From contig JALOPB010000017.1 in assembly GCA_025454115.1 (NCBI GenBank), positions 1 to 37,928 on the forward strand: a DNA stretch of 37,928 nucleotides, in the 5' to 3' direction. A model generated the notes under the pieces. The model ran no database searches, was not told the origin of the DNA, and was given only the letters and a program-made list of their open reading frames with translations. Positions 3,970 to 8,395 of the stretch are shown here, piece by piece (position 1 is the first letter of the stretch; the number at the start of each line of letters is the position of its first letter). The translations under genes and the position numbers were made by a program. Source of the stretch: Desulfobacterales bacterium. Lineage in GTDB: Bacteria > Desulfobacterota > Desulfobacteria > Desulfobacterales > SpSt-501.

Positions 3970-4614
3970 TCATTGCGATGGTTTAAAAAGGCCTCTCGGA
4001 TTAGCTCCCGCCAACCCGGCCTGATAGGAGCGCTCATCGACCGGGGACAGCCTATCCGCCAAGGCTGGCGGCAGCAGGTTGATGCGGCGGATCTCATCGG
4101 TGCGCCGGGCGATGAGATCTAAGGGCTCATCCTTCGTCATCCAATCGAAGCGGTCGAAGCGATTCAGGTTGAGCGGGCCGGTGTACCCGCGCAGGGTCTT
4201 TTCGCGTTCGATATTGTAGTACTGCTCGAAGTAAGACATCGCCAGCTCGCGCAGGTTGCGGTAAACCGGCTCGCGGAAACGCAAGCCGACGAAATTGGAT
4301 TTGGCGACCGCGCCCCAATGCCCGTCGATCTTGAAAAGGGCGAGCAGGTGCTCGTCGTCCCGACCGTTCGACAATAGGTCCAGTATCAGTGGCGGATGGC
4401 CGAGGCGGCGCAATGCAGCGGCAGCAAACACGGCCCCGTCGAAGCAGTGGGCGGTGCGCTCCCTCAGCACCCGCAATGGACATCGATAGAAGTCGTCGGT
4501 GCTGTAGGCGATATCATCCAGAAAGGCCTGTATCCTCGCCGGGCTTGTCAGCCCGCTGATCATTCCCCGTTCCGTATCGGCCAGCATGCGTTCAAACGTT
4601 TCAAACGGGGTCAT
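3970..4614 (-). CDS. Transglutaminase-like / papain-fold-like protein
   Basis: 214 aa with TAHCFDGAVFAAAALRRLGHPPLILDL followed by DDEHLLALFKIDGHWGAVAKSN, a Cys...His...Asn layout like the transglutaminase-like fold. Overlaps the 3' end of the exosortase gene by about 14 bp. Confidence 0.6.
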   Translation of the reverse strand: MTPFETFERMLADTERGMISGLTSPARIQAFLDDIAYSTDDFYRCPLRVLRERTAHCFDGAVFAAAALRRLGHPPLILDLLSNGRDDEHLLALFKIDGHWGAVAKSNFVGLRFREPVYRNLRELAMSYFEQYYNIEREKTLRGYTGPLNLNRFDRFDWMTKDEPLDLIARRTDEIRRINLLPPALADRLSPVDERSYQAGLAGANPRGLFKPSQ

Positions 4615-5149
4615 TCCATTTCCTCCTCAAGCGATTCGAATGCGCTGCCCATCGGCGCCACCGCCACCATATGCCCAGCGCCGCCATCATCAGAATGAGC
4701 TCCCACACCAACTCGTGGGCCAGATCGAACAGTGCCGGGTGAAAAACGCCGGTATGGAACAACTGGACAAGACGAATGAGGTTCAGGCCGACCAGCACAG
4801 GAATTCCTACGCACACGCCGATCAGTTTGGATCGCACGGATACCGGCGTTGCGGCGGTCAACGCTGCCAGGATAGCCGCGGGCAGCAAGCCCGTGCAGCG
4901 GTAATAGATCTCATAGGCAAACCCTTCGGGATGATGGATCTGAGAGCCAATCCGCACCGCCTCAATCTTTAAAGCATGCAGAAAGGCCAGCGTCATCCGA
5001 GCGGTCAGTTCTTCCCACGGGCCGAGGAGCCGTCCCAGCAGATCGTCGCGGTAGACCATCAAAAAAAGGAACATAATGGTTGAAACGCGGATTATAAAAC
5101 GCACTGTCGGGCGGCTCCAGGCCGAGCCGATGCAAAGGCCATCCATCAT
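4601..5149 (-). CDS. Exosortase/archaeosortase family protein
   Basis: 182 aa, several hydrophobic helices, with the ordered Cys/Arg/His catalytic set: EIYYRCTGLLPAAILAAL (Cys), IPVLVGLNLIRLVQLFHTGVFHPALFD (Arg), DLAHELVWELILMMAALGIWW (His). Confidence 0.85.
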   Translation of the reverse strand: MMDGLCIGSAWSRPTVRFIIRVSTIMFLFLMVYRDDLLGRLLGPWEELTARMTLAFLHALKIEAVRIGSQIHHPEGFAYEIYYRCTGLLPAAILAALTAATPVSVRSKLIGVCVGIPVLVGLNLIRLVQLFHTGVFHPALFDLAHELVWELILMMAALGIWWRWRRWAAHSNRLRRKWNDPV

Positions 5150-5150
5150 T

Positions 5151-6983
5151 TTATACCTGACCGGAATTTATCCGATTTCGTTTTATAACGATAATAGCAG
5201 CCCATGCGATGATAAAAACGACGGCGGTTAGTGATAAATCCGGCACTCTCACCGGTGCGCTGGCGGTCGTGCCGTTTGCAGTTGCGCTCAGCGTGGTCTC
5301 CCCTTTGGATTCTCCCTTCACGGTCGTTTGGGCCAGCCCGTTCGCGTCGGTGACGGCCGCGGCGGGCGTCACGCTGGCGACGGTCGCATTCCCGGTGTTG
5401 AAGGCGACCGACTTGGCGGCGACCGGAGCGCCGTTCTGGGTGACGATGGCCCTAGCGGTAGTGGATTCTCCGGTCTGCAGGTCGCTGGAATCTATCCTTA
5501 AGGACACTGCCAGGGAAGGCGGTGGTGGTCCTCCCGGGGCAACTGCGCTCAACAGGCCGGCGCCACAGGGCTGCGGGCATTGAGCTGCCGTTCGCGGCAA
5601 CGCATTCGCCTGCAAATTGGCCAGCACCTGGGATGACACGAGCGCGGGCTGTTGTGCCAGTATGAGAGCCGCCACGCCGGCCACATGCGGGGCTGCCATG
5701 GACGTCCCATTGTAATAGGCGTAGGTGCCGGCATTAGGGTGTACCAGGCTCAGGACCCCGTCCGGCCGACCGTCGCCGTTGTCGTCTCGGCGGACATCGC
5801 CGCCCGGGGCCATGATCTCCACGGTCGACCCATAGTTGGAATAGCGCGTGGCGAGATAGCCGCGGGCGTCGCCGGCCGCGACGGTGATGACGTTGTTGCA
5901 GCTGGCCGGAAACACCTGGGAGGCGTCCGTGGCATCGTTTCCCGCCGCCACCACGACCGTCGCCCCCATGGCGACCGCATCATTGATGGCTGACTGGGTG
6001 GACGGCGACATCGAGCAGGGATTGCCGGGGGGTGTCCCCAGGCTCATGTTGATGACTTTGGCAGGCGTGGAATTGGCGGGAACCCCCGGAACCGACAAGC
6101 CCGCGGCCCAGCGGATGCCGTCGTTGATGTCTGCGGTTGTGCCGCCGCACTTGCCCAAGACCCGGACGGCCTGGACTTTGACATTCCAGTTGATACCGGC
6201 CACCCCGATCCCGTTATTGGTGTGGCCCGCGCCGATGGTGCCGGCAACATGCGTTCCATGCCAGCTGTCTGGAAGCGCCGGGCTTCCGGGGTAGCATTCG
6301 CCGGCCGCCGCTGCATCCCCAGGGTCCGTCGGGTCGCTGTCCCGGCCGCCGCCGTCGTTGCCGATAAACGCATCGCTGATCATGTCGTACCCCGGTACCA
6401 CATTCGGAGATCCCTGGATATCAGGGTGGTTCGGCAGAATGCCCGTGTCGATAACGGCCACTACGACGGCGGAACTTCCGGTCGAGGCATCCCAGGCTCT
6501 CGGAAGATTGATGCCGCCCGGGGACTGCCCGGCCCCGGCCCCGTTTGAAAAGTAATGCCACTGCTCCGGGTAGCGCGGATCGTTGGGGATTTTGTCTGAG
6601 ATGCGCAGGATGTAGTTGGGCTGGGCATATTCGACATCCGGCCTGGCCGCGAACTGGCGAACGAGCTGCAGGGTGCGGTCCAGGAGTTGATCCCTCGACA
6701 TCGCACTACGGATGTTAGGGGCAATGCGGTAGATGATTTCACCGCCGGAGGTGACGCCTTGTTTCTCTTGAACCCCTAAGCGGCTTAAATCCGCTCCCCT
6801 GAGCCGGAGGGCGGGTTTCATGCGCACGATGACTTCGCCGGGCACGAATAAGGGTGTTGGCGGCGCTTTCTGTTCCATCAGCCGTTGGACGTCTTCTGGC
6901 GTGCGCTCCTGAGAGTAACCCATCGCCGCACTCATGAACACCATGATTCCGACGGCCATCGTTTTCATCCAAAAACGTTTCAT
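5151..6983 (-). CDS. Secreted S8 (subtilisin-like) serine protease with propeptide, bacterial Ig-like domain and C-terminal hydrophobic tail plus basic cluster
   Basis: Signal peptide MKRFWMKTMAVGIMVFMSAAMGYSQE; triad motifs VAVIDTGILPNHPDI, SWHGTHVAGTIGA, GTSMAAPHVAGVAALI; Ig-like region SLRIDSSDLQTGESTTARAIVTQNG...; C-terminus VPDLSLTAVVFIIAWAAIIVIKRNRINSGQV. Confidence 0.93.
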   Translation of the reverse strand: MKRFWMKTMAVGIMVFMSAAMGYSQERTPEDVQRLMEQKAPPTPLFVPGEVIVRMKPALRLRGADLSRLGVQEKQGVTSGGEIIYRIAPNIRSAMSRDQLLDRTLQLVRQFAARPDVEYAQPNYILRISDKIPNDPRYPEQWHYFSNGAGAGQSPGGINLPRAWDASTGSSAVVVAVIDTGILPNHPDIQGSPNVVPGYDMISDAFIGNDGGGRDSDPTDPGDAAAAGECYPGSPALPDSWHGTHVAGTIGAGHTNNGIGVAGINWNVKVQAVRVLGKCGGTTADINDGIRWAAGLSVPGVPANSTPAKVINMSLGTPPGNPCSMSPSTQSAINDAVAMGATVVVAAGNDATDASQVFPASCNNVITVAAGDARGYLATRYSNYGSTVEIMAPGGDVRRDDNGDGRPDGVLSLVHPNAGTYAYYNGTSMAAPHVAGVAALILAQQPALVSSQVLANLQANALPRTAAQCPQPCGAGLLSAVAPGGPPPPSLAVSLRIDSSDLQTGESTTARAIVTQNGAPVAAKSVAFNTGNATVASVTPAAAVTDANGLAQTTVKGESKGETTLSATANGTTASAPVRVPDLSLTAVVFIIAWAAIIVIKRNRINSGQV

Positions 6984-7468
6984 GGTAGCCTCCTTTCTGT
7001 CTGCTAAAGCAGTTCAAGGAAACCGATGGATTGTTTTTTTGCTTTTTGATCTGATCTGCACGTCCTTTTCAACGGGCTTGGGGAGCAGTTGGTAGCTTCG
7101 AAACCGAGCGGCTGTTGAACCCGTATAGAAACCGCGCAATGGAAGGATCAGGAAGAATATTAAACGCTCAGCTGATGTTTCAAAGCTAAGAATGGAAGGA
7201 AACTAAGGAGGGGCTCCGTCAAAGTCAAGCAATACCGGATCGGGCAAGGAGAAATCGCTCCGGTTTCGTTATGCGGTTCGGCAAAGGTGCCTTCAATCCA
7301 CGTGGAAAGCTGAGAAAATGGTTGATGCGGTTGAATCTCTGAGGAGCTTATACGCGAAATCAGATGACATGCCAATCGCGATGGCTTATAAACGGTTTTA
7401 GCCATCAACCGACCAGCCGGCGCTCACCTGAAAGCAGTCTCGCGGGTGCGGGTGCAGACAATACTTTG

Positions 7469-8395
7469 ATGATGCTCCAAGATATTCAACTGATGTCCCG
7501 AATTGCGGTTTCGATCGTCCTGGAGGCCGCTCCTTTTTTGCTACTCGGATCGCTAGTGTCGGCAGCCGTGGACCGATATGTGGACACGGAGCGCATCGTG
7601 AGCCGAATCCCTCAAGGGGCGCTTGGACGTATCACGGTCGGGCTATTGGGTGGAATGCTCATGCCTGTCTGCGAGTGCGGATCGGTACCCCTGGCGCGCC
7701 GGCTGCTGGAAAAGGGTGTCCCGCCGTTGAGCGCGGTTACCTACATGCTGGCTGCACCGGTTATTAACCCTGTGGTGATGTTGTCCACCTACGTGGCCTT
7801 CAGCGGGAACTTCCAAATGGTCGTTGGCCGGGTCTTTATAGTCGCCTGCAGTGCGGCTTTGACCGGATGGCTCTGCCGTGGCTACCTCCGCGCCGGTCGG
7901 CCGGCTGACTCCAAATGCTCGCTCTCGCTGTCGGACTTGAACCATCTTCATTCGCACGGCGCTCAAAGCCGGTCGACCGCTGGGTGCAACTGCCGAACGG
8001 TTTTGGATTTTCTCAGCAGCGGGGCTTCCGAGTTCCTGGAGATGGGGAAATACCTCGTTTTAGGCGCCCTGGCTTCGGCCGCCTTCAAGGTCTTCCTGCC
8101 CTGGCAGCTCGTTCAAGTGATAGCTGGCAGCATGCCCCTATCGATTGTCGTGTTGATGATTTTAGCGGTTCTGCTCTGCGTCTGTTCCGAGGCGGATGCC
8201 TTTGTCGCCGCTTCTTTTGTCTACGTGCCTCCGGCCGCGCAGCTGGGCTTCATGGCCTTGGGCGCCATGGTGGATCTCAAGCTAATAGGTATGTATTTTG
8301 GGGCGTTTCCAAAAAAAATGGCATGGACACTGGTCATCGTGCCGATGGTCTGCGTCCTCGGTTTAACCTTCTTTTCGGGATATCTGATCAGGTAG
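7469..8395 (+). CDS. YraQ/DUF318-family permease (SO_0444-type efflux transporter-like)
   Basis: Characteristic motif GGMLMPVCECGSVPLARRLLEKGVPPLSAVTYMLAAPVINPVVMLSTYVAF and a second half SEADAFVAASFV...LGAMVDLKLIGMYFG. Likely start at 7469 (MMLQDIQLMSR). Confidence 0.85.
   Translation: MMLQDIQLMSRIAVSIVLEAAPFLLLGSLVSAAVDRYVDTERIVSRIPQGALGRITVGLLGGMLMPVCECGSVPLARRLLEKGVPPLSAVTYMLAAPVINPVVMLSTYVAFSGNFQMVVGRVFIVACSAALTGWLCRGYLRAGRPADSKCSLSLSDLNHLHSHGAQSRSTAGCNCRTVLDFLSSGASEFLEMGKYLVLGALASAAFKVFLPWQLVQVIAGSMPLSIVVLMILAVLLCVCSEADAFVAASFVYVPPAAQLGFMALGAMVDLKLIGMYFGAFPKKMAWTLVIVPMVCVLGLTFFSGYLIR

Follow-up and report, generated by a model that had tools for sequence, protein, structure and literature searches.

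A subtilase with a divergent C-terminal tail as the probable dedicated target of its neighbouring XrtH-like exosortase in Desulfobacterales

In a 37,928-nucleotide stretch of Desulfobacterales bacterium DNA (GenBank assembly GCA_025454115.1, contig JALOPB010000017.1; hereafter the window), an S8 subtilase gene, an exosortase gene and a third gene are packed on the minus strand, which raises the question of whether they constitute a single sorting system and which of their products is its target. In the original prediction, the subtilase was regarded as a substrate dedicated to the neighbouring exosortase, the third protein as a transglutaminase-like accessory enzyme, and the whole as a system of a composition not known to have been described. 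The gene organization underlying this proposal was confirmed: the three open reading frames lie where they had been placed (Table 1), the subtilase and exosortase genes follow each other without gap, and the exosortase and third genes overlap by 14 bp.

Table 1. Positions in the window of the three genes and of the subtilase tail
Feature	Position	Strand	Basis
S8 subtilase, 610 aa	5151..6983	minus	ORF listing, family searches, motifs
Tripartite C-terminal tail of the S8 subtilase: VPDLS 580-584, hydrophobic helix about 585-600, KRNR 601-604	5172..5246	minus	
Predicted XrtH-like exosortase, 182 aa, C85/R126/H145	4601..5149	minus	
Predicted CPR-C4/vasohibin-like cysteine protease (third gene), 214 aa, C57-H89-L111	3970..4614	minus	homology

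The sorting enzyme was first examined by family searches. It passed the cut-offs of PF09721 (34.8 bits, cut-off 25.7) and of the general exosortase/archaeosortase signature TIGR04178 (48.5 bits, cut-off 23). Its best subfamily model was that of exosortase H (TIGR04177), with a score of 81 bits which stays under the cut-off of 86. In the genome of the window (G000), no IPTL-CTERM match over cut-off was detected, and exosortase H membership found no confirmation through accompanying IPTLxxWG-CTERM proteins. The Cys, Arg and His residues that had been pointed out in this order correspond to C85, R126 and H145. These are invariant across 31 aligned compact exosortases, in which the invariant columns total only six, and residues of this type have been proposed to be catalytic (Haft et al. 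2006, PMC1569441). The predicted structure was confident (pLDDT 92.5) and contained helices, the ordered Cys, Arg and His in a multi-helix membrane protein being those expected of the superfamily. Comparison of this model with PDB folds gave nothing significant (all E > 1), and zero matches were obtained with the exosortase profile against PDB chains.

In the phylogenetic tree, the exosortases of the window and of a congener locus (L034, see below) form a lone long branch of 3.1 changes per site, loosely grouped with proteins from G555 and G397 and two from G056 (support 92/92); this grouping was drawn open. When the whole collection was scanned with the exosortase as query, a single relative was retrieved. 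From its sequence, the enzyme is classified as a predicted divergent XrtH-like exosortase. Two G056 exosortases are each followed by an unassigned protein of the membrane of about 172 aa (L043, 8630-9148; L101, 7397-7912) matching no NCBIfam model, and the gene after the G252 and G214 exosortases encodes a different membrane protein of 221-236 aa.

The subtilase matched Peptidase_S8 (PF00082) with 184 bits and displays the Asp, His and Ser motifs of this family (VIDTG at 177, HGTH at 242 and GTSMAAPHVAG at 426). Its N-terminal part comprises a predicted signal peptide and a propeptide-like region, and a Big_1 Ig-like domain (506-578) precedes the tail VPDLSLTAVVFIIAWAAIIVIKRNR (residues 580-604), in which the short segment, the hydrophobic helix and the basic cluster of the original prediction are all present. 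None of the CTERM models gave a match over cut-off or a credible match on this tail; Loki-CTERM reached 18.1 bits (cut-off 19.9) on the L034 tail only, and the IPTLxxWG-CTERM model (TIGR04174) left the tail, which is devoid of WG, unmatched. Proteins encoded beside other XrtH-like exosortases frequently carry xPTLSEWG, a helix and an Arg cluster at their C-terminus, and VPDLS can be superimposed on xPTLSEWG, again without WG. The 8-mer containing VPDLS is the top match to the motif in the whole 610-aa protein and is located where required. Since the probability of this match is about 0.01 when five registers beside the helix are allowed and about 0.09 when all registers of the tail are, the likeness of VPDLS to xPTLSEWG, and with it the resemblance of the tail to an IPTL-type motif, is suggestive only.

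In order to appreciate the conservation of the pair, the window was compared with L034 (Desulfobacterales BIN27), a congener locus that probably belongs to the G412 genome, as both show 86% exosortase identity. The same three genes are found there with 86-95% identity, and the VPDLS-TM-KRNR tail is kept together with the exosortase. The dN/dS values between the window and L034 were 0.20 for the exosortase, 0.09 for the S8 protein, 0.15 for its last 40 codons and 0.10 for the third gene. The three-gene arrangement is thus conserved under purifying selection in the congener and is not due to chance. This version of the pair is known from two close genomes only; a close S8 protein and the exosortase are jointly missing from five congeners (G322, G377, G438, G459 and G475), and in the genus the exosortase only ever occurs alongside this S8 protein.

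A search of G000 and G412 for the same tail, as proposed in the original prediction, was carried out with a profile derived from both S8 tails. This profile matched only the two S8 proteins, and no further protein C-terminus was found in either genome, as the hits ranked after them do not correspond to matching C-termini. The subtilase is the sole carrier of the cognate tail in its genome, as judged with a profile built from two sequences and an assembly of G000 that is 85% complete, from which a further substrate could be absent; G412 is estimated to be 100% complete. The adjacency of the conserved pair, the restriction of the tail to it and the possible assignment of the other sorting tails to another exosortase (see below) make it very probable that the protease is a substrate dedicated to the adjacent exosortase, as had been proposed.

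An explanation to be weighed against this one is that the S8 tail acts purely as a membrane anchor, like that of mycosin-type subtilases, and that the exosortase serves another substrate or none. Among NCBIfam models, mycosin indeed matches the S8 protein best, though far under cut-off, and the weak likeness of the tail to IPTL points in the same direction. However, none of the 28 S8 relatives collected from the class has such a helix or tail at its C-terminus, and the exosortase does not occur in the genus apart from this S8 protein, the sole tail carrier found. A simple anchor is consequently an unlikely explanation.

The three genes could also form one system in which the third enzyme is an accessory in the same pathway. 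The overlap of the genes in both pair-carrying genomes makes co-expression likely, and the third gene, downstream of the pair, is probably co-transcribed with it. The transglutaminase identity was rejected, as the PF01841 match (15.9 bits) lies under the cut-off of 23. Residues 7-196 of the third protein align instead with CPR-C4 (PDB 7OB6, E = 3.2e-41), a vasohibin-related protease whose Cys-His-Leu triad was defined in PMC9108980. The corresponding C57-H89-L111 is invariant in ten homologues, and its spacing is that of the triad at 61-93-115 in CPR-C4; unlike the latter, which belongs to the Candidate Phyla Radiation, this homologue by sequence occurs in Desulfobacterota. The third gene is therefore predicted to encode a cysteine protease of the CPR-C4/vasohibin type.

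Against an accessory role, the third gene occurs without the S8 and exosortase genes in all five congeners cited above, in four of which it converges directly on the Fe-S gene found beside the window copy as well. Homologues with 62-67% identity were found in genomes of other families in unrelated surroundings, the conservation over several families of the phylum ranging from 62 to 75% identity, and none was found beside other exosortases among the collected exosortase loci. Furthermore, the third protein has no predicted signal peptide and should thus remain cytoplasmic.

The history of the locus argues in the same sense. At L078 (G438), 11 bp separate the end of a cupin gene from the third gene downstream of it, whereas at L034 the same cupin gene (7511-7840) is upstream of the S8 gene, the S8 and exosortase genes being placed between it and the third gene. 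The window has lost the cupin gene by a deletion of about 330 bp, its last codons remaining at about 7280-7320; short GCTTTYC repeats flank this deletion. An insertion of the pair in the ancestor of both genomes, the direction of which we infer, would be simpler than repeated loss. The third gene is judged to have been at this place before the pair, to be its neighbour and not its partner, and to be independent of it. An accessory role in the pathway appears very improbable, and the three-gene system initially put forward is unsupported, while the S8-exosortase pair is well supported as real and dedicated.

Finally, the view that the exosortase serves the PEP-CTERM proteins of the genome, its adjacency to the S8 gene being accidental, is the least credible of all: G000 has three matches over cut-off and G412 has four, but all are unlike the S8 tail, the compact enzyme is of the XrtH and not of the XrtA/C type, and a separate full-length XrtC/XrtA-like exosortase on contig C26 of G000 (L040) adjoins one PEP-CTERM match, so that these remaining sorting tails can be assigned to it.

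The reading that we retain as likely is a dedicated two-gene sorting system in which the subtilase is the target of the neighbouring exosortase. Following the exosortase model, from which we infer recognition, cleavage, acceptor and final location alike, the signal peptide would direct the export of the subtilase, and the C-terminal helix and basic cluster would then retain it in the inner membrane. Once the adjacent exosortase has recognized the VPDLS-TM-KRNR tail, C85, aided by R126 and H145, would cut at or near the VPDLS motif. The protease would then be released, or passed to an acceptor and displayed beyond the inner membrane.

Such an association is partly familiar. Pairs of a sorting enzyme with a single target were described by Haft and Varghese (2011, PMC3237569), who documented rhombosortase/GlyGly-CTERM in detail and reported S8 proteases among the bearers of sorting tails. 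As in those pairs, enzyme and sole target are encoded here by neighbouring genes, but the enzyme is an exosortase and not a rhombosortase. With exosortase H/IPTLxxWG-CTERM, the pair shares a compact enzyme of 160-200 aa, an adjacent target and xPxLS right before the helix; it differs by the subfamily score under cut-off, the tail without WG and the long separate branch. No paper joining exosortase, subtilisin and adjacent genes was found in the literature search. The claim of a system not yet described thus holds for the divergent tail and the exosortase lineage, which are new, and not for the dedicated pair as a kind. More tentatively, the pair may represent a distinct lineage of exosortases that has VPDLS, devoid of WG, as its tail signature and an active extracellular protease as sole target, travelling as a mobile two-gene cassette.

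A second S8-exosortase pair was observed in another family. In G555, an unrelated 701-aa S8 protein gene overlaps that of an XrtH-like exosortase by 4 bp (L083, 2733-5413); this independent pair, with the different tail VTPVTTALGLLAIGLSFLLTGIASFRERGKE, is followed by amylase-like genes, and no second copy was found in the family of G555. Among the collected exosortase loci, S8 neighbours occur only in the window lineage and in G555, a count which is a lower bound because in many of these loci the flanking sequence extends for only about 1.5 kb.

To our knowledge, cleavage by exosortases is still poorly established biochemically, and one enzyme with one assayable substrate, a subtilase, in two genes offers a small and testable set-up. 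The locus also illustrates that gene overlap alone can mislead, as the vasohibin-type third gene exists there without the pair. If the pair does represent a distinct lineage and a mobile cassette, the G555 pair with its other tail would imply more than one recruitment of compact exosortases to S8 proteases.
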